Source: Sphaerochaeta associata
GTDB lineage: Bacteria; Spirochaetota; Spirochaetia; Sphaerochaetales; Sphaerochaetaceae
Reading direction: 5' to 3'
Assembly: GCF_022869165.1 (NCBI RefSeq)
Contig: NZ_CP094929.1
Coordinates: 992,001 to 1,056,000, forward strand
DNA: 64,000 nucleotides
This document shows, in pieces, positions 33,601 to 42,870 of the stretch. Numbering within the stretch: position 1 is the first letter of the stretch; each line of letters starts with the position of its first letter. The notes beneath the pieces were generated by a model that saw only the letters and a list, made by a program, of their open reading frames with translations, ran no database searches and had not been told where the DNA came from. A program made the translations under genes and the position numbers.

Positions 33601-33924
33601 ATGTTCAAGAATTTCAAGGCTGCCGAAGTGCACGCGTTTGCCGATCTGGTCCAGTATCAGGAAGGACAGGTGGTCAGTAAAACGTTTGCCCAGGACAAGC
33701 ATCACAGCCTTACGTTGTTTGCTTTCGAGAAAGGGGAGGAGATCAGCACCCACGCCAGCGGCGGGGATGCCCTGGTCATCGCCTTGGATGGAGTAGGGGA
33801 AGTGACGATTGACGGCAAGAAGTTCACCTTGGGTGCCGGCGAATCGATTCTCATGCCCAGCAACGTCCCTCATGCCGTATATGCACCAGAACGTTTCAAG
33901 ATGTTTCTGGTAGTCAGTTTCTAA
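33601..33924 (+). CDS. Small cupin-domain protein
   Basis: This 107-residue single cupin has motif 1 as ISTHASGGDALVIALDG and motif 2 as LGAGESILMPSNVPHAV. One His of motif 1 and the His of motif 2 are kept, enough for a metal site, but the usual HxH pair is reduced to HAS. Its partner is hcp, 26 nt downstream, and such cupins often accompany hcp. A role in nitric-oxide or redox sensing is only an inference. AAGGAG lies about 11 nt before the ATG. Confidence 0.85.
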   Translation: MFKNFKAAEVHAFADLVQYQEGQVVSKTFAQDKHHSLTLFAFEKGEEISTHASGGDALVIALDGVGEVTIDGKKFTLGAGESILMPSNVPHAVYAPERFKMFLVVSF

Positions 33925-33950
33925 TATAAGTTCGTAAGGAGAAAAAACGG

Positions 33951-35585
33951 ATGGACAGCAAGATGTTCTGTTTCCAGTGTCAGGAAGCCGCCCGGAATTT
34001 TGGATGTACCCAGGTCGGTGTTTGCGGCAAGCAGCCTGCAACCTCAAATTTGATGGATTTGATGATCTGGGTAACCAAAGGCCTGAGCCAGGTTGCCACC
34101 AGACTTCGTGCCGAGGGCAAGCAGATTGACAAGGATGTAAACCACATTGTCACCTACAATCTCTTCCAGACCATTACCAACGCCAACTTTGACGATGACA
34201 AGGTAGTGGAACGTATTCTGCTTACCATTGCTGCAAAGGAGCAATTGCTTGCTACGCTTGCTGACAAGAATAATCTCAGTACTGCAGCCCTGTTCAATAA
34301 CGCTGACGTTTCCACCTATGCAGAGCTTGCCAAGACGGTTGGAGTTCTCGCTGAGAGCAATGAGGATGTGCGCAGCCTCAAGGAGCTGATCACCTACGGT
34401 TTGAAGGGCGTTTGTGCATACACCAAGCATGCCAACAACTTGATCAATGAGAACGAAGAACTGGATGCTTTCATCCAGAAGGCTCTTTCTGACCTGCTTG
34501 AAGTCAAGAGCGTCGATGAGTTGGTGGCCCTTACCCTTGAGACCGGTAAATGGGGTGTTGCAGGCATGGCGCTGCTCGATACCGCCAATACCAGCACCTA
34601 CGGCCATCCCGAGATCACCAAGGTCAAGCTTGGAGTCGGCAAGAACCCCGGCATCCTGATCAGCGGTCACGACCTCCGAGATCTGGAGATGCTGCTTGAG
34701 CAGACACAGGGAACCGGAGTCGATGTATACACACACTCCGAGATGCTTCCCGCCCACTACTATCCTGCTTTCAAGAAGTATCCAAACTTCTACGGCAACT
34801 ACGGCAACGCGTGGTGGATGCAGAAGAAGGAGTTCGAATCCTTCAATGGTCCTATCTTGATGACCACCAACTGTATTGTTCCCCCGGCCCAGTCCTACAA
34901 GCCTCGCCTGTTCACCACCGGGGCCACCGGGTTCCCGGGCTGCAAGCATATTGCCGGCAACATCGGCGAGCAGAAGGACTTCAGCGAGATCATCGCCTTG
35001 GCAAAGACCTGCCCGGCTCCGACTCAGATCGAGGACGGGGAACTGGTCGGCGGTTTCGCCCACGAGCAGGTATTCGCCCTTGCCGACAAGGTTGTCGATG
35101 CTGTGAAGAGCGGTGCGATCAAGAAGTTCGTGGTCATGGGTGGTTGTGACGGCCGTTCCAAGAGCAGGGATTACTATACCGAATTTGCAAAGGCTCTGCC
35201 CAAGGACACCGTAATCCTCACTGCAGGGTGTGCCAAGTACAAGTACATCAAGCTCAACCTTGGTGACATCGGCGGCATCCCCCGTGTATTGGATGCCGGT
35301 CAGTGCAACGACTCCTATTCACTGGCACTCATCGCCCTGAAGCTGAAGGAAGTCTTCGGTTTGGATGACATCAACGATCTGCCGATCGCTTACAATATTG
35401 CCTGGTACGAGCAAAAGGCTGTTATAGTGCTGCTTGCACTGCTTTACCTTGGTGTGAAGAACATCCATCTCGGACCCACGTTGCCTGCATTCCTCTCTCC
35501 GAATGTAGCAAATGTGCTGGTTGAGAACTTCGGCATTGCTGGAATCAGCTCGGTAGAGGATGATCTGAAAGTCTTGGTTGGTTAA
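33951..35585 (+). CDS. hcp: Hybrid cluster protein (hydroxylamine reductase / NO reductase)
   Basis: This 544-residue enzyme carries a 4Fe-4S cluster at its N-terminus ([13 protein letters not shown] and GVCG, spacing CX2CX8CX5C). That is the spacing of anaerobe-type Hcp rather than the enterobacterial one. Hybrid-cluster ligands are seen in [46 protein letters not shown] and [10 protein letters not shown]. It protects against nitrosative stress by reducing nitric oxide or hydroxylamine. AAGGAG precedes the ATG. No hcr reductase gene is adjacent, so electrons must come from elsewhere. A hairpin terminator follows. Confidence 0.95.
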
Positions 35586-35604
35586 TCGTTTGGTCTAGGT
35601 TTTG

Positions 35605-35636
35605 AAGGGAGCTCCCGGCGTGAGGGAGCTCTCTTC
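35605..35636. terminator. Hairpin terminator after hcp
   Basis: GAGCTCCC and GGGAGCTC pair around GGCGTGA, with AAGG and TCTT extending the stem by G-T and A-T pairs. The following tract (TCTTCGTCTT) is only moderately T-rich. It lies between two convergent genes and may serve both. Confidence 0.65.
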
Positions 35637-35659
35637 GTCTTATATGGGCTCTGTTCGCT

Positions 35660-36919
35660 CTAGAAATACCAACGTAGAGCGGCCCAGGCCAGCGAATTGG
35701 AAGCATAGGTTCCGAACGTCCCGTCCTTGTCTCCCAAGAATACATCCAGGCCGCCTTCCAAGAGTACGCCATTGCCAAAGTTGTACGAAATTGATGGACG
35801 CAGGAGTGTATTGAGTGGTTCGACTTCGATATAGGTGAACAGTCGTACTGTCAACTGCTCGTCGAAGAAGGTGTCCTGCATCCGAAAGGTGAATGTATGT
35901 GCAAATTCCTTGACTGGTTTCATCTGGGAAACCAGGGAAGCGGTGTGATCGTGGGTGTACACCATCAGGTACTGGGTTGACCATTGGGATCCCAACATGT
36001 TCCAATCGAGGCCGACCAAGGCTTGCACCTGGGTATGCTTTTCAATCGTGATCGGAGGGTTTTTGGATGTATCAAGGCTGTTCATCGGCTTGTCCAATGC
36101 CAACGCAGTCTCTCCCCTGAGTACGAGACCTCCCAAGGCGGTATTGAAGCTGCCACCGATGAAGCTGTAGCGTTCATACCGTTGGGAAATCACCCGTGTG
36201 GCGGGATCGGGAGCGGTTACCTCACTCGCCAAGGGTTCGTCAGTGAACACATAGCCTCCGTTTAGTTTCCAGCTTACGGCATTGCCGAAACGACCGAGGG
36301 AGAGAAAGAATTCACTGTTTTCGAGCGTCGTTTCAGGCATGGCCGAGTCTGTGAAGGACACCGATGTGATTGCAGGCGGGAATGGAAGCGTAGGTGTTTG
36401 CGCCCACATGGAGTTGGAAGCGGGTAGGGATGTTGGAATGAAATGAGTAACCCAGATGCCTTGCATCGTGTACGGCCCTGCATAATAGTCCACTTTGATG
36501 GCGGGCACCGCCTTGCGGATCTCGCTGAAGTCGGCAAGAATGAAAGACCTCATGTCCCTTGGGCTCACCAAGTCGGTGATGAATGCTCCTTCGGCTTCTC
36601 CCCATATGACCTTCTGTTTTCCCACTCTCACGTCTGCATTTTCCAGATAGAAGTCAAAGTATGCTTCGGCCAGATTGAGTTGCAAGGCTTTGTTGGGATT
36701 GCTGTACACCACCGGGTGAAGGGTAAGCTTTCCCATGTCTGTACTATGTTCATAGAATGCATCCATCGTCTGTTCATGGACTGGCATATCCAGTGATTCC
36801 AACCGTACTGCAGCATAGTCGCGGACCATTCCACTGAATGTACTGTTTGCTGGTATGGCAGGCAGAACTGCCAAGACGAGGAAAAGGAATACTACGAATG
36901 TTTTCTGTCTTATGTTCAT
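35660..36919 (-). CDS. DUF1302-like outer-membrane beta-barrel protein of an RND export system
   Basis: This 419-residue protein has a signal peptide (residues 1-25, ending AIPANS) and many amphipathic strands. It ends in SLAWAALRWYF, with terminal Phe as in barrels. DVRVGKQKVIWGEAEGAFITD matches the start of DUF1302-type outer-membrane proteins, where a conserved G(K/R)Q..WG.. lies near the N-terminus. It is the last gene of the set with an RND exporter and a LolA-like protein and is inferred to be its outer-membrane acceptor or exit. GAGAGG precedes the ATG, 3 nt after the LolA-like stop. Confidence 0.72.
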   Translation of the reverse strand: MNIRQKTFVVFLFLVLAVLPAIPANSTFSGMVRDYAAVRLESLDMPVHEQTMDAFYEHSTDMGKLTLHPVVYSNPNKALQLNLAEAYFDFYLENADVRVGKQKVIWGEAEGAFITDLVSPRDMRSFILADFSEIRKAVPAIKVDYYAGPYTMQGIWVTHFIPTSLPASNSMWAQTPTLPFPPAITSVSFTDSAMPETTLENSEFFLSLGRFGNAVSWKLNGGYVFTDEPLASEVTAPDPATRVISQRYERYSFIGGSFNTALGGLVLRGETALALDKPMNSLDTSKNPPITIEKHTQVQALVGLDWNMLGSQWSTQYLMVYTHDHTASLVSQMKPVKEFAHTFTFRMQDTFFDEQLTVRLFTYIEVEPLNTLLRPSISYNFGNGVLLEGGLDVFLGDKDGTFGTYASNSLAWAALRWYF

Positions 36920-36922
36920 GAT

Positions 36923-37711
36923 TTATCCTCTCGGTCCAATTTTCATTTGTCGTTCGGTGAAAAAGTTGTCGTCAAAGTCGAGATTGAACGCAACCTCCTT
37001 CATCTGTATTCGTGTTGAAGTCTGTTTTTCCCAGTCTTTCATGATCATATCGGTGATCACATAGATACCGTCGACTTCTTCGAACGCCTCTATGCTCAAT
37101 GTTCTCCCCAAAGTCCCATCTTGCCTGTAGAACTCTTTCTTGAGGCCGAACCACTCTCCTTCGACCACCCAGGAAAGAGTGCGTGGATAATCTTCGTCTC
37201 CTTTTGCGATGCTTTCCACTACGAGTGTGGACTTTTCCTGAATCAGTTCCTTTCTGAGTACGGTATGGGTATCGAGATCAGGGTGGCGGCTTCCCATATC
37301 GTCATAGGTGAAGTCCGAGCCCATGAATGAGTCGTTTTTGCTGTCGGATGCAATTCGCTTGACCCGCTTCAGCGCAGGAAGATAGATGTACTGTGCATCT
37401 GAGCGGCCGTCCTCATAGCTGAGACTCAGAAAACTGGTATTGCGCACATCGTTGGGGGAAAGGAAGAACATCAACTTGCTCTCAACTCCCTCTTTGTCCA
37501 TCCGATATTGGACGATGCTTCGTTCGCGAACCGAGCCTCTGGCATTGGTCAAGGTCATGATCAGGTTTGCACGCATGGTATCACCGCTGTCGCGGTTATA
37601 CACTTCCCACATTACCTGCTCGCCGGAATAGTCGGCGGCAAACAAGGCAGACATTCCCAGCACAAGTGCCAGAACCAGGAAAATACGTCGATGTTGTTTG
37701 TGATTTTTCAT
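36923..37711 (-). CDS. LolA-like periplasmic (outer-membrane lipoprotein-sorting) protein
   Basis: This 262-residue protein has a signal peptide (LVLALVLGMSALFAAD) and then a LolA/LolB-type half-barrel pattern. Typical parts are IMTLTNARGSVRERSI, ESKLMFFLSPNDVRNTSFLSL, YIYLPALKRVKRI, SFMGSDFTYDDM and the end NLDFDDNFFTERQMK. It belongs to the LolA-like group that accompanies MMPL-type exporters, where it probably ferries a lipid or hydrophobic molecule across the periplasm. GAGGAG lies before the ATG. It overlaps the RND stop by 4 nt. Confidence 0.85.
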   Translation of the reverse strand: MKNHKQHRRIFLVLALVLGMSALFAADYSGEQVMWEVYNRDSGDTMRANLIMTLTNARGSVRERSIVQYRMDKEGVESKLMFFLSPNDVRNTSFLSLSYEDGRSDAQYIYLPALKRVKRIASDSKNDSFMGSDFTYDDMGSRHPDLDTHTVLRKELIQEKSTLVVESIAKGDEDYPRTLSWVVEGEWFGLKKEFYRQDGTLGRTLSIEAFEEVDGIYVITDMIMKDWEKQTSTRIQMKEVAFNLDFDDNFFTERQMKIGPRG

Positions 37712-40017
37712 GTGATGCTCCTCTGTGAAATGGTAGTGATATGTTTGGAAAAGAGATGGTTGTTGCGATCGAGATGATGGATCAACACCACCAGGACGGT
37801 AAGCGTTGCGATGGCGCTGGTGGCCATATTCAGGATGATCAAGGCTCCTACCTGCCTATTGGGAGGAAAAACACTGAAGAGAAGAATGGCGAAGCCTCCC
37901 ATCACAGCAATGGCATTGAAGACAATGGCCCTGCCGGTATGAAGCAGCGTTTCTACAGTCGCCTCCTCAAGGGTTTTTCCTTCGAGGCGGGTATTGGTGT
38001 AGTGTTCAAGGAAGTGGATGGCATAATCGACGCCGATGCCTATGGCTATGCTGGTGATCAAGGCAGTGGCCGAGCTGAGCGGGATATTGAGCAAGCCCAT
38101 GACTCCAAAGTTGACGATTGCCGTGATGGCGATGGGAACGGTTCCGACAATACCGATTCGTACATTGTGAAACAACAAGGCAAGCAGACCGAAGATGATG
38201 CCGAACGAGATGATCAGGCTGATGATCTGCCCTTCCAACAACAGCTCGCTGAAGACAAATGTCTTATAGCCGCTTCCTGCATACCCTACCTCGATGCCGA
38301 ACTTGCTGAACGCTTCTTGATAGGAGTCGATGGTTGTAAGCACGTCCTTGAGGACGGCCGAGCTGTCGCTCTTCAATTGTACTGTGATATTTGCTGTGGA
38401 ATAGGTATAGTCAATCACCTGCTCGAGCGTTTGGGGATCGCCGGAGAATTCGTACAGCAACAGATATTGGCTGATGAGTTCTTGGGAATCCGGAATGCTG
38501 AAACTGGCATCGGCATGCTCTTCCATGACTTGGTTCATCTGCTTAATGAACGTAGCAAGAGAAAGGGTATTGCCTACGATAGCATTCGATTCCAGGTCGG
38601 TTTGCATACTGTCCATGGTTTGCAATACCTGTGGATCTTTGAATAGATCTTCGTTTTCGGAGGTGAGGATGACATTCAAAGTTGAGGTCCCGCCGAATTT
38701 GGCATTCACATACTGATCGGTCTCTACGATGGAGTTGTTCTTCTCGAAATTGGCCAAAAAGCTTGTATCGATCCAGACCTTACTGGTTCCCCAGATGCCG
38801 ACTGCAAGAATGATCATTGAAAGGATTACCAAGAATTTCGGTCGGTTCATGATCAAAGCATTCAACCGTGTCATAGCCGAAGGTTTTGACAGGTTTTGTA
38901 TGTTTTGCTTGTACTTGGGAACACCCAGCAGGTAGATGGAGGCGGGAAACAACAACAATGCAAGTACCATTTCACCAAGAACCCCGATGGCTGCAAAGAG
39001 ACCGAAATATCGTACTGGTAGCACTTTGCTGCTCATCAAGGCAACAAATCCGATGGCTGTGGTGAGAGCAGTCATGAATATCGGTCTGATCATCGTCTGC
39101 ACCGATTTTCTTGCAAGCTCATCCTTACCGATAGTAGGAAATTCAGCTATCAAGTGATGGATGGTGTTGTGCATATGAATGCCGTAGGCGACTCCGATGG
39201 CAATCAACATGACCGGAATCATGGTATCCACTGCGTAGATTGGTATGCCCAGGAGGGTCATGCTGCCGAACGCAAGCAAAGTACCAAAAAGTACAATGAC
39301 CATGTTCAGGACCGTGTCTCTGACTGAGCGAAGCAGGAAGTAGAGTAGAATAATCATGGTAAGAATGACCAAGGGAAACATGATCGCCATGTCTTTCGGT
39401 CCCAATTCGGCAAGGGATCCCTCGATGACCGGACGGCCTGCAATTCTCAGCTTCTGCGGACCTTCCCATTGTCCTATCCACTGTTGCAGCGTTTTTTGCA
39501 GAGCCTTGGTATCTGCATCTTCACCCAATTCGGCAATGATGAGCGTGGCTGTCCCATCCCTGCTTACATTCCTGCCGTAGATCATGGGATTTGCTTCAAC
39601 ATCGGCCTTCATGGATAGCAAGGCTTTCTCGCTGGTATTGCCCGAGAAGAAAGGCTCAACTTCCAAGAAACCGTCAGTGCTTTGTATGTTATCGGCGTTG
39701 GTCAAAGATATTACACGTTCTATTGCCTCAAAATCCTCTTCCAAGGCCTTGGTGATTGCATCGATTTTCTCAATCGTTTCGGAATTGTAGATTCCTTGAG
39801 GGTCTTCAAGGACGATGAGTATTGCGTCACCGATGCCGAAAAGCTGCTCGGCATCATCGCTTGCAATGAAGGCCGGATGCGTTTTGGGCATATACTCACT
39901 CAGGTCGGTTTCAAGGCTTGCCGTTTGCGAGATTGAGACGGCAAACAGGATTGAGAGCACAAGTAGCAGGAGCAGCAAAGCATAGGGACGCTTTGCCAGA
40001 GCGATGATGAATTTCAT
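37708..40017 (-). CDS. RND/MMPL-family exporter (HAE3-like)
   Basis: This 769-residue membrane protein has the RND two-fold plan: TM1 (residues 11-30), a large periplasmic domain, five TM segments around residues 205-370, TM7 near 395, a second periplasmic domain and five TM segments near 610-760. GIGVDYAIHFLEHYTN and AIGVAYGIHMHNTIHHL are the family's TM4-type motifs. Related proteins (MmpL, HpnN, HAE3) export lipids, hopanoids or hydrophobic compounds. GGAGG lies 5 nt before the ATG. A candidate TetR operator lies just upstream, so control by the adjacent repressor is likely. Confidence 0.88.
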   Translation of the reverse strand: MKFIIALAKRPYALLLLLLVLSILFAVSISQTASLETDLSEYMPKTHPAFIASDDAEQLFGIGDAILIVLEDPQGIYNSETIEKIDAITKALEEDFEAIERVISLTNADNIQSTDGFLEVEPFFSGNTSEKALLSMKADVEANPMIYGRNVSRDGTATLIIAELGEDADTKALQKTLQQWIGQWEGPQKLRIAGRPVIEGSLAELGPKDMAIMFPLVILTMIILLYFLLRSVRDTVLNMVIVLFGTLLAFGSMTLLGIPIYAVDTMIPVMLIAIGVAYGIHMHNTIHHLIAEFPTIGKDELARKSVQTMIRPIFMTALTTAIGFVALMSSKVLPVRYFGLFAAIGVLGEMVLALLLFPASIYLLGVPKYKQNIQNLSKPSAMTRLNALIMNRPKFLVILSMIILAVGIWGTSKVWIDTSFLANFEKNNSIVETDQYVNAKFGGTSTLNVILTSENEDLFKDPQVLQTMDSMQTDLESNAIVGNTLSLATFIKQMNQVMEEHADASFSIPDSQELISQYLLLYEFSGDPQTLEQVIDYTYSTANITVQLKSDSSAVLKDVLTTIDSYQEAFSKFGIEVGYAGSGYKTFVFSELLLEGQIISLIISFGIIFGLLALLFHNVRIGIVGTVPIAITAIVNFGVMGLLNIPLSSATALITSIAIGIGVDYAIHFLEHYTNTRLEGKTLEEATVETLLHTGRAIVFNAIAVMGGFAILLFSVFPPNRQVGALIILNMATSAIATLTVLVVLIHHLDRNNHLFSKHITTISQRSIT

Positions 40018-40030
40018 GAATCCTCCAAAT

Positions 40031-40043
40031 AGTTAACGTTTAC
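40031..40043. promoter_or_regulatory. Candidate TetR operator upstream of the RND operon
   Basis: AGTTAACGTTTAC, 14 nt before the RND start, matches the site at 40687-40699 in 11 of 13 positions, including AGTTAACG. It lies in the 71-nt gap between the regulator and exporter genes. Confidence 0.5.
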
Positions 40044-40088
40044 TTACTTACAATAGACAAAGATTTGCATCCCTTGCCATCCGATGCA

Positions 40089-40670
40089 TTACATTACGGA
40101 GAACAGGGTGATAAGCGTGTTGACGATGGGCGTGGCTTGATTGGTGAGACTGGTGCTCGCTCCTTGCAGGTGCCAGCGGGAAACAGAAAGACGAATTGAA
40201 CCGAAGGTGATGACGGCAAGCTGGCGGGGGTCGAGATCCGAACGGCAGGCACTTTTTTCAATTGCTTTCTCAAAGAATTGAACCAAGCGAGCCAGATTGC
40301 CCTCCATGAGGGAAAGCAACTCAGTTTGCAGCTGCGGATCCACATTGAAGGTTTCTTCTGCAAACAACAAGAGGGTGAAGGCTGTATTGTGCTCCAACAA
40401 GGTAAAAAGTTCAGAAAAAAATGCACGCAACGCTTCAAACTCAGGTGCTTCAGATTCGAACAGGGCATCGAATCGGGGTGAAAGCATTGCATTGAGATAC
40501 GCCAGAATGGCCTTGAGAAGTTCGTGCTTGCTCTCAAAATGGCGATAGACCGCCGCCTCGCTGACGCCGATTGCCGATGCAACGTTTCGTATGGTAAGTT
40601 TCTGAATTCCATCGGTAGCGGTGAGCTTGATGGCTGCTTCTATCAATTCCAACTGTCTGGGGGTTTGCAT
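40089..40670 (-). CDS. TetR-family transcriptional regulator
   Basis: This 193-residue repressor has the TetR DNA-binding domain at residues 1-50, with helix-turn-helix LTIRNVASAIGVSEAAVYRHFESKHELL. The C-terminal ligand and dimer domain is helical and unassigned. It is the first gene of the same-strand set and lies 71 nt before the RND exporter. Similar 13-bp sites lie before both genes, which suggests autorepression and repression of the exporter, relieved by the exported molecule. GGAG lies 6 nt before the ATG. Confidence 0.92.
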   Translation of the reverse strand: MQTPRQLELIEAAIKLTATDGIQKLTIRNVASAIGVSEAAVYRHFESKHELLKAILAYLNAMLSPRFDALFESEAPEFEALRAFFSELFTLLEHNTAFTLLLFAEETFNVDPQLQTELLSLMEGNLARLVQFFEKAIEKSACRSDLDPRQLAVITFGSIRLSVSRWHLQGASTSLTNQATPIVNTLITLFSVM

Positions 40671-40686
40671 CCTCGGCTCCTTTGTA

Positions 40687-40699
40687 AGTTAACGATGAC
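40687..40699. promoter_or_regulatory. Candidate TetR operator upstream of the tetR gene
   Basis: AGTTAACGATGAC lies 16 nt before the regulator start and shares AGTTAACG plus three further positions with 40031-40043. A related CTAACGTAC follows at once. Confidence 0.5.
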
Positions 40700-40788
40700 T
40701 AACGTACAGCAATTTGGTTCGTTTGGCAAGAGGAATCACTCAATTTTTCACCAATTTCCTTGCCTCTCTACGCTCTTGAGGGGATACT

Positions 40789-42870
40789 ATGTTTATGGAC
40801 AGTGCAAAAAGTATGGCAAATGCCAGTGAATTTCAGAGTACAAAGGCTATCGTGGAGCGCTATCTCTCACTGCATGCAGAAGGTTCGTATACTTATCGTC
40901 CCTTCATGAAAAAAGGCATCTACCGCGGCAGTGATTACCGCTATCATGCCGATATGCATCAGCTGCTTCCGTCGGCAAAGCTTGGAACCTTTTCCTACCT
41001 GTGGGGGACGTATGAGGCCGCAGATGCGATGAAACTCCGTTTCGCCCTTATTCCCTATGGACCGGTACAAGTCTACGTAAACGGATTTCTTGAGGCGCGC
41101 AGCGATATATTCAGTGAGCGCTACCATTCCAAGCAGATCTTCGACCTTCCCATGCAAAAAGGAACCAACGAGTTGGTTCTGGTTTGCGAGAACACCAGCG
41201 GAGGTTTTGGATGTGAGTTCGGAACCTGGGTGGGAAAACTTGATTACTACTTTCTTATGCCATCCATCTATCCTGCCATGGAAGGGATTTGTTACTCAGA
41301 ACCACAAGTAACCCTGCTTGAGACTGTCCATCCCGAAGCATTGAAGAACCTGACCTGGCGACCCGAACTTCCTGATTTTTCCGCTGCCCATATTGACCTT
41401 GCAGAGGTGTTTCCCCACGCAGCTGATGACGAGTGGGCGGTCGTGGTTACTTCCTTCTCTGTTGCAAAGGACACGTGGTGCAACCTCAGCTGCAACTCTG
41501 AACTTGCACTCGATGGGCAGAGCGTCAGCAGTTCAGTGGAAGTGAAAAGCGGCACACATACCCTGACACTCTATGCCAAGATAGGAGAGGGAGTGGATTT
41601 GCATATCACCGATGCGAAGAAAGGCAATATACTTTCCTTGATGCATCCCGTGTTGGGTTCTGAATCGGCATATCACTATGCCATTGCAGGGCCTTTTGCT
41701 GTAAGGCCGAAGGGTTTTCCGGTAGAGTTCACCAAACCCTTTTCCACCTCGAATGGATTGGATTTCTGGCGCTTGGAGGGTGGTGAAACCTATCTGAGAA
41801 TGTACAACGACAATGTTCTGTTCGGACATTGGAACTATCCATTGGGAGTCACCCTCTATGGTTTGGTGGAAACCGAGCGCATGCTGAGGGATCTGGACCC
41901 TGAGTTGTCGGTGCAGATTCATGCATACCTGAAGCGTCATATACAAGCCAGCATCGATACCTATGAGTATGCCATGTGGGATAAAGACACTCTTGGGGGT
42001 GCGACCGCCGTCCATCATCTGATGACCAGTCTGGATAGTCTGGACGACTGTGGCAGCTTTGGATCGACCTTGCTTGAGATAGCGAAGGACCACGAGCTCT
42101 CAGGGTATGAGTCGCTGGTTGCCGTGGTGGGCGATTATATCTGCAAAACCCAGCCGCGGTTGGCCGATGGTACCTTTTTCCGCACCGGCCTCATGCACGA
42201 GTTCCATGAGAATACACTGTGGGTGGATGATCTGTACATGTCAGTCCCGTTTTTGTGCCGCTATTCCGGCTATAGTGGCAATATGGAACACTTGGATGAC
42301 GCTGTTCAACAGTTCTTCGGCTTTGCCAAGTATTTGTACATGCAGGATAAGAATCTGATGAGCCACGTCTACGACTTCGACCGCAACATCGCCACCGGCA
42401 TTCCCTGGGGACGGGGAAACGGCTGGGCTCTCTTCAGCCTTAGCGAGCTGTTGATGGTCCTGCCGCAGTCGCATCCGAAAAGAAAGTCTCTTATAGATCT
42501 GTTTAGAAATCTCAGCAGCGGGTATCTGAAATTGCAGGATGAGATGGGGCTGTTTCATCAGGTGCTGAACATGAAGGAGAGCTACCAGGAAAGCAGCTGC
42601 ACCGCCATGTTTGCCTGTGCCTTCTCCCGAGGTATCCGAAACGGCTGGTATGAAGATCCCGCTGTGTACCGGGAGGGGTGCATCAGAGCTTGTGAAGGGC
42701 TCAAAAAGATGGCCATCGATACCGACGGCCATGTCTGGGGAGTGTGCAGGGGTTCTGAGTTCTCCTGTTCCAAGCACTACTATGCCGAGCAGCTGTTGCC
42801 CCGCCTGGATGATACCCATGGAATAGGAATCATCCTGCTCGCACTCTGCGAGCGGATGAAGCTCGACTAG
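40789..42870 (+). CDS. GH105 unsaturated rhamnogalacturonyl/glucuronyl hydrolase with N-terminal beta domain
   Basis: This 693-residue protein has its catalytic module in residues 330-690. It resembles YteR/YesR enzymes, which remove the unsaturated uronic acid left by pectin lyases. WVDDLYMSVPF (near residue 478) carries the catalytic Asp, and WGRGNGW (near 540) is the family's signature. About 300 residues precede it, with a galactose-binding-like beta pattern (YGPVQVYVNGFLEARS, GTNELVLVCEN). No signal peptide is present, so it acts in the cytoplasm on imported oligosaccharides. AGGGG lies 5 nt before the ATG. The convergent ABC permease gene overlaps its stop by 4 bp. Confidence 0.88.
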   Translation: MFMDSAKSMANASEFQSTKAIVERYLSLHAEGSYTYRPFMKKGIYRGSDYRYHADMHQLLPSAKLGTFSYLWGTYEAADAMKLRFALIPYGPVQVYVNGFLEARSDIFSERYHSKQIFDLPMQKGTNELVLVCENTSGGFGCEFGTWVGKLDYYFLMPSIYPAMEGICYSEPQVTLLETVHPEALKNLTWRPELPDFSAAHIDLAEVFPHAADDEWAVVVTSFSVAKDTWCNLSCNSELALDGQSVSSSVEVKSGTHTLTLYAKIGEGVDLHITDAKKGNILSLMHPVLGSESAYHYAIAGPFAVRPKGFPVEFTKPFSTSNGLDFWRLEGGETYLRMYNDNVLFGHWNYPLGVTLYGLVETERMLRDLDPELSVQIHAYLKRHIQASIDTYEYAMWDKDTLGGATAVHHLMTSLDSLDDCGSFGSTLLEIAKDHELSGYESLVAVVGDYICKTQPRLADGTFFRTGLMHEFHENTLWVDDLYMSVPFLCRYSGYSGNMEHLDDAVQQFFGFAKYLYMQDKNLMSHVYDFDRNIATGIPWGRGNGWALFSLSELLMVLPQSHPKRKSLIDLFRNLSSGYLKLQDEMGLFHQVLNMKESYQESSCTAMFACAFSRGIRNGWYEDPAVYREGCIRACEGLKKMAIDTDGHVWGVCRGSEFSCSKHYYAEQLLPRLDDTHGIGIILLALCERMKLD

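Follow-up and report, generated by a model that had tools for sequence, protein, structure and literature searches.

A run of four adjacent genes in Sphaerochaeta associata raises the question of whether a TetR-family regulator, an RND pump of the MMPL type, a LolA-like periplasmic carrier, and an outer-membrane β-barrel form a single route across the cell envelope and, if so, for which cargo. All four are encoded on the minus strand, at 35660-40670 of the stretch that we analyzed (hereafter the window), which comprises 64,000 nucleotides (nt) and corresponds to positions 992001-1056000 in a genome of 3,554,903 bases assembled as one contig. The list of open reading frames (ORFs) gives the order TetR, RND, LolA_like, and barrel, with gaps of 71 nt (TetR-RND), -4 nt (RND-LolA_like), and 3 nt (LolA_like-barrel); the ORF coordinates thus reproduce the one-strand arrangement given in a preliminary description of the locus, and all four proteins exceed a Pfam cut-off. 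Our comparisons support joint inheritance of the four genes as a unit that extends from inner to outer membrane, and a trans-envelope function is likely. As its cargo, an acyl lipid is the leading candidate, ahead of toxic hydrophobes.

The carrier family PF17131 occurs at three places in the window genome (the window and loci L012 and L013), each paired with a barrel. It is present in 97 of the 120 genomes examined across the phylum and in 33 of 61 from the family, where, by hand count, 30 of 33 barrel matches have a PF17131 match no more than 1 kb away and the other three are on other contigs. To these places we added 140 fetched regions, comprising 68 of the 73 family PF17131 rows (three from the window genome itself, one fragment, and one weak match were omitted) and 72 phylum rows, and since the latter were chosen among the higher-scoring ones, weak relatives fall outside the sample. 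The resulting 142 Spirochaetota places consist of the window, L012, L013, and the fetched regions, with one fused locus, L141, counted apart. Within 4.5 kb of the carrier and on the same strand, the engine is an RND pump at 80 places and an ABC/FtsX pump at 52, while 10 places have neither and none has both. A barrel stands near the carrier in 128 of the 142 (72/80 RND places, 46/52 ABC places, and 10/10 with neither). At the RND places, the pump is directly upstream in 76 of 80 (gap of at most 250 nt) and the barrel directly downstream in 69 of 80 (gap of at most 300 nt). The association of RND, carrier, and barrel is far above chance. In the fused locus (L141:7367-10954), a 1195-residue frame joins RND and LolA_like naturally and is followed by a barrel gene.

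Beyond these places, the evidence comes from named loci, the best 80 kept from a scan with the carrier alignment, whose counts are therefore not frequencies in nature. They are drawn from Spirochaetota, Bacteroidota, Cloacimonadota, Neomarinimicrobiota, Calditrichia, Ignavibacteriales, WOR-3, Aminicenantes, Latescibacterota, Fermentibacteria, Delongbacteria, Eisenbacteria, and others, and because nearly all are from metagenome assemblies, single taxon labels may be wrong. The closest are Sphaerochaeta/Sphaerochaetaceae loci (L156-L158), with carrier identities of 81, 63, and 57%. All four genes are on one strand in 50 of the 80 loci; the RND is present in 74 and the barrel in 75. Among the incomplete loci, 18 lack only the TetR, three only the barrel, and two both of these; six, each situated within 400 nt of the start of a contig, have neither TetR nor RND, and one has no labeled carrier. 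Pairwise distances across 44 complete cassettes agree at r = 0.86-0.87 among RND, carrier, and barrel and at 0.64-0.68 for TetR, values that include shared species history, and none of 2000 permutations gave agreement as high.

The preliminary description had asked for such a co-occurrence survey and had held that genes found apart in relatives would speak against a common path; the components stay together both at the Spirochaetota places and in the named loci. Its picture of an inner-to-outer-membrane unit thus stands, whereas its tie to the unusual glycolipids of spirochaetes is not supported: with the cassette spread over many phyla, we rejected the idea of a glycolipid exporter peculiar to spirochaetes. 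Elsewhere in the window genome (L014:8023-16425, in 1130000-1149000), reading of the translations revealed two more MMPL genes adjoining two similar glycosyltransferase-like genes, with no LolA_like or barrel gene by the two MMPL genes; this group is a possible glycolipid exporter.

The other two carrier places of the genome differ from the window in engine or regulator. One (L012:7416-12721, in 3198000-3214000) encodes another set of RND, carrier, and barrel, in which a LuxR-type gene following the barrel stands in place of an upstream TetR; a LuxR label is found near 14 of the 80 RND places and none of the 52 ABC places. The other (L013:4461-9465, in 3215000-3230000) encodes a LolD-like ATPase, two FtsX permeases, a PF17131 carrier, and a barrel. 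The ABC, FtsX, and LuxR names at both loci were assigned from reading translations. While DUF1302 is recognized genome-wide in the window barrel only, iterated profiles started from the three genomic barrels end with 110, 113, and 108 ORFs among the loci that we gathered, so the barrels are probably one family. In a carrier tree of 153 rows, a single change accounts for the pump labels, compared with a mean of 42.7 when the labels are shuffled, and in a 66-row tree under a better model, the RND/ABC split has a Shimodaira-Hasegawa-like approximate likelihood-ratio test value of 97. The barrel tree (136 rows) needs two changes. Places without a pump label, short carriers, and short or long barrels were excluded before tree building, as were nine long-branched rows from the 66-row tree. 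Free engine swapping was rejected on these few label changes, which indicate that the two engines mark two old carrier lineages rather than casual swaps.

The cassette appears to carry its own switch. A palindrome, GTTAGTNANNNNTNACTAAC, was first spotted by comparing 13 spirochaete cassettes and lies both upstream of tetR and in the tetR-RND gap; a search of the whole window genome for its Sphaerochaeta form at up to three mismatches gives these two copies and no others. With up to two mismatches allowed, 59 of 73 cassettes have a site. In the 38 non-spirochaete cassettes, which were unused in motif discovery, 25 match within one mismatch, 17 of these exactly, and the reversed pattern gave no site there. 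As a further control on these 38, we used 20 palindromes with shuffled halves, of which one, perhaps a near copy of the true operator, reached 16 and the others at most 2. In 30 other genomes, 23 of the 24 listed places of the exact 20-mer are beside a cassette tetR, and the last (in G277) is a known site duplicated through a 141-nt contig overlap; the exact site is missing in 11 of the 30, and the reversed 20-mer gave 4 places. A wider TetR regulon was rejected, as its sole extra exact place is this duplicate. The ligand domain of the window TetR matches PF08359 marginally (22.9 bits, cut-off 21), and 35 of 40 cassette TetRs match it at E ≤0.001. This is the YsiA/FadR(Bacillus)-type domain, which we take to bind long acyl-CoA. 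The window TetR was not filed as FadR because it scores 52.1 bits against the cut-off of 200 of the FadR equivalog NF053878.

The carrier belongs to PF17131 and is modeled with a LolA fold (pLDDT, the predicted local distance difference test score, of 88.5), giving Z 22-26 to PF17131/DUF1329 structures. Its best structural match is LolA3 of Porphyromonas gingivalis (9tp6; Z 25.7 over 230 residues, root-mean-square deviation 3.0), followed by the DUF1329 protein 4z48 (Z 23.2) and 3bk5 (Z 22.2); LolA and LolB structures are mostly at Z 9-12, with P. gingivalis LolB at 14.0. The profile match to LolA3 spans the whole protein (322 bits). The protein starts with a signal-like stretch and has no Cys within its first 30 residues. 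Its most conserved stretch, FMGSDFTYDD, lies in the least confident part of the model (pLDDT <50 at 126-138) and may behave as a moving loop would. LolA3 is reported to have a hydrophobic groove, to lack the LolA Arg and the LolB Leu, and to bind LolB only weakly, and the available text of the report ascribes to it only a separate function (PMC13103446; this and the other papers are cited from the portions of their text at hand). In Flavobacterium johnsoniae, deletion of lolA3 leaves gliding and type 9 secretion intact (PMC11885536), and the locus tag next to P. gingivalis LolA3, PGN_0946, is called a predicted exporter (PMC5378342). We infer that LolA3 is the carrier of a cassette of this kind, which suggests a role for this unexplained third LolA protein.

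The two membrane components are likewise recognizable. The window RND is matched by PF03176 in two stretches, and its best NCBIfam model is the HAE3 model TIGR00921, at 272.5 bits and below the cut-off of 351.9. It falls far below the model cut-offs of HpnN (86.4 against 751.85) and BstABC (21.9 against 1400). Asp 664 is kept in 128/128 aligned relatives and His 668 in 127/128, and RND pumps of the MMPL type are proton-driven exporters. The barrel has a signal-like N-terminal stretch, no Cys in its first 30 residues, and a C-terminal -RWYF. Its profile reached solved structures at E 0.22 or worse, while its model (pLDDT 93.2) matches MOMP at Z 23.1, Occ/OprD at about 22, and AlgE at about 21, all of which we take to be 18-strand channels. 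The barrel thus models as an OprD/MOMP-like outer-membrane channel.

The reading that we favor, with confidence that is about evenly balanced, is that the cassette is a dedicated, locally repressed export line for an amphiphile bearing acyl chains. TetR would shut its own promoter and the pump genes through the two palindrome copies, a pair observed in the DNA, and would let go on binding a ligand, perhaps one derived from a fatty acyl group. The RND, driven by the proton gradient as family knowledge suggests, would pick up its cargo at the inner membrane, on the periplasmic side, and hand it to the LolA3-type carrier, whose fold is seen in its model and in the solved relative and whose groove would shield the acyl part in the periplasm. 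The carrier would then deliver it to the barrel, a fold likewise seen in the model, which would place it in or across the outer membrane. The likeliest class of cargo would be a glycerophospholipid or a similar acyl lipid, going by phospholipase and phospholipid-synthesis genes in other phyla.

Among these genes, an OMPLA-type phospholipase gene occurs in 13 of the 80 named loci, in Bacteroidota and relatives. A protein of about 300 residues with an invariant HHSNGQ motif is encoded in 12 of the 80 cassettes, at full length in 11, and of eight that we aligned, four match Pfam PLA1 at E ≤0.1, the best at 2.3e-5, with displayed scores below the cut-off. The label OMPLA-like is thus weakly founded, on this faint PLA1 match and on the invariant HHSNG motif, which we presume to be a mark of OMPLA; its profile matched no solved structure, and a PHROGs search gave 0 matches. 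A clear PLA1 follows the barrel in L186 (4.9e-32, above the cut-off). Eleven of the 12 genomes have one OMPLA-like match, and in the twelfth, the copy at the end of the cassette's contig is truncated while a full one lies elsewhere. Among 80 genomes from one order, 8 have the gene, 6 of them (one being the centre genome) within 2.5 kb of a strong carrier match; off-cassette copies are found in G264 (no carrier match), G214 (another contig), and G191 (a full copy). At L269:4926-10001, an off-cassette OMPLA-like gene adjoins a gene that resembles RND pumps (AcrB-like by eye, with 41.8 bits to the MMPL profile), and two small genes there resemble those of L187. Because the OMPLA-type gene is often in the cassette in Bacteroidota and their relatives, an acyl lipid is the likeliest cargo there. 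Further lipid genes occur at single loci, namely CDP-alcohol phosphatidyltransferase (L161 and L180), inositol-phosphate synthase (L180), phospholipid methyltransferase (PEMT; L207), and patatin (L189), and stand as raw occurrences. These come from a Pfam scan of 39 of 101 listed ORFs, mostly within the cassette or first after the barrel. Phospholipid as cargo is thus a lead from other phyla rather than a result for the window genome.

Several observations weigh against an acyl-lipid export line. Barrels of the OprD and MOMP kind mostly serve uptake or diffusion. The OMPLA-like gene is absent from every spirochaete locus examined, so this clue to the cargo may not hold for the window, and many of the accompanying genes have no lipid link (e.g. 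rubrerythrin, QueG, a cation exporter, and ArsP-like permeases). The site is absent at up to two mismatches from 14 of the 73 cassettes, including that of Prevotella, and the agreement of the distances is partly shared species history. Moreover, expression of an operon of similar composition in P. gingivalis rises strongly when iron is short (PMC10434189), which lipid export leaves unexplained.

The alternative that survives best, although we consider it somewhat unlikely, is detoxifying efflux of foreign or metabolic hydrophobes, in which TetR senses a toxic compound and no lipid is built into the envelope. AmeABCD of Castellaniella defragrans joins an HAE3-type RND, a LolA-superfamily periplasmic protein, and a DUF1302 barrel, encoded together, with AmeC, a photosystem II stability factor-like protein (COG4447), and its deletion lowers monoterpene tolerance (PMC6394551). 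The window shares the DUF1302 barrel (PF06980), a dedicated TetR would suit efflux, and the carrier also matches DUF1329 (PF07044; 34.8 bits, cut-off 23.1), but this match covers only profile positions 77-208 of 368 and ranks below that to PF17131. PF14870, which we take as a stand-in for COG4447, has no match in the window genome, which by this search lacks an AmeC-type gene, and cassettes of other phyla repeatedly carry phospholipid genes rather than degradation genes. Unlikely, too, is an extension of acyl-lipid export in which the cassette would be a proton-driven counterpart of Lol, used in many phyla to bring phospholipids to the outer membrane, with LolA3 as carrier, the barrel as insertase or exit, OMPLA as a frequent finishing enzyme, and a TetR that senses lipid overload and turns the set on.

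We regard as improbable a branch of lipoprotein sorting, in which LolA_like carries lipoproteins, the RND replaces LolCDE, and the barrel replaces LolB. The carrier's LolA/LolB fold would fit, as would the LolCDE/MacB-like ABC pumps that adjoin sister carriers and an Lnt gene after the barrel in L210. However, its Pfam match is to PF17131 rather than the LolA family, the engine beside the window carrier is an RND instead of a LolCDE type (the two never occurring together at the Spirochaetota places), and LolA3 neither has the LolA Arg nor binds LolB strongly (PMC13103446), nor is it needed for gliding or type 9 secretion in F. johnsoniae (PMC11885536). Very improbable is uptake or iron-related traffic, with the barrel as a channel for inward movement or with export of an iron-binding amphiphile such as a siderophore: the barrel folds closest to MOMP and Occ/OprD channels and the TetR/MMPL/LolA-like operons of P. 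gingivalis and P. intermedia are strongly iron-regulated (PMC10434189), but MMPL-type RND pumps are exporters by family knowledge, and no iron-uptake gene was named among the 39 scanned cassette genes.

Table 1. Features of the four-gene cassette and its flanks (positions within the window)
Feature	Positions	Strand	Details and basis
TetR-family repressor, YsiA/FadR(Bacillus)-type ligand domain	40089-40670	-	193 residues; PF00440 (TetR_N) 51.7 bits, cut-off 24
MMPL/HAE3-like RND pump	37708-40017	-	769 residues; PF03176 (MMPL) 123.7 bits, cut-off 20.5
LolA3-type periplasmic carrier	36923-37711	-	262 residues; PF17131 (LolA_like) 190.9 bits, cut-off 30
Outer-membrane β-barrel, DUF1302-like	35660-36919	-	419 residues; PF06980 40.2 bits, cut-off 23.2
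Operator 1, tetR promoter region, GTTAGTCATCGTTAACTTAC	40684-40703	-	palindrome search
Operator 2, tetR-RND gap, GTAAGTAAACGTTAACTATT	40028-40047	-	palindrome search
Candidate promoter, TTGCCA, 17 nt, TACGTT; second hexamer overlaps operator 1	40701-40729	-	putative, read by eye
Terminator-like hairpin, 14 pairs, between barrel gene and converging prismane gene	35603-35637	unassigned (listed on +)	terminator scan

The candidate promoter falls under the threshold of the promoter scan and is hence unlisted there, and the hairpin is weak evidence because the region has four such sites against a shuffled mean of 5.1. A GH88-type glycosidase gene (40789-42870) on the opposite strand starts 118 nt from tetR, which places operator 1 in a divergent promoter region; at the other end, cupin and hybrid-cluster (prismane) genes (33601-35585) converge on the barrel gene. 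Among the named loci, a DUF2147 gene follows the barrel in five (L172:5658-6158, L173:9068-9574, L196:9094-9543, L201:8080-8535, and L218:5052-5471), DUF3943 genes do so in L173, L174, and L184, and fragments or pairs of ArsP_1-type permeases lie inside or after the cassette at L175:4602-5638, L190:3765-4199, and L227:7974-8977.

The route by which phospholipids and other acyl lipids travel to the outer membrane has long been an open question, which a compact single-operon system with its own switch, in culturable groups such as Sphaerochaeta and Prevotella, would make testable. In the open-access literature, with subscription papers and preprints outside our scope, we found no description of the cross-phylum four-gene cassette or its operator, of the division between two engines, or of LolA3 in the carrier role. 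The nearest known system is AmeABCD, whose carrier is a 451-residue DUF1329 protein as against the 262-residue PF17131 protein of the window, whose substrates are monoterpenes, and for which the text at hand mentions neither a TetR nor an operator (PMC6394551). The operons PG1175-81 of P. gingivalis and those of P. intermedia combine TetR, MMPL, and a PF17131-type annotation as the window does but differ in having two extra ABC genes (as in L022/L158 and L088) and iron regulation, and the text at hand treats them as expression data only (PMC10434189; a further piece on them is PMC10101095). BBJ23-29 of Borrelia, also a spirochaete, has a LolA-like carrier, an outer-membrane barrel, and its own inner-membrane engine; with an ABC engine and an Omp85-type barrel, it resembles, by description only, the ABC lineage of L013 (PMC13078400). 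TOL_3187 of Thalassolituus oleivorans is a single protein with both MMPL and LolA-like domains, encoded next to a porin-like gene, and is thereby comparable, by description and not by sequence, to the L141 fusion; it is reported only as induced by long-chain alkane (PMC6304351). HpnN and BstABC also employ MMPL-type RND proteins for lipid movement towards the outer membrane, BstABC being sterol carriers, but with periplasmic partners other than those of the window (PMC10942540). LolA3 supplies the closest solved structure to the window carrier but has been studied in P. gingivalis and F. johnsoniae, in the text at hand, as a stray LolA with no RND or barrel partners (PMC13103446, PMC11885536). 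The cassette proposes concrete partners for it, an RND and a barrel, and links RND and ABC engines to sister lineages of one carrier.

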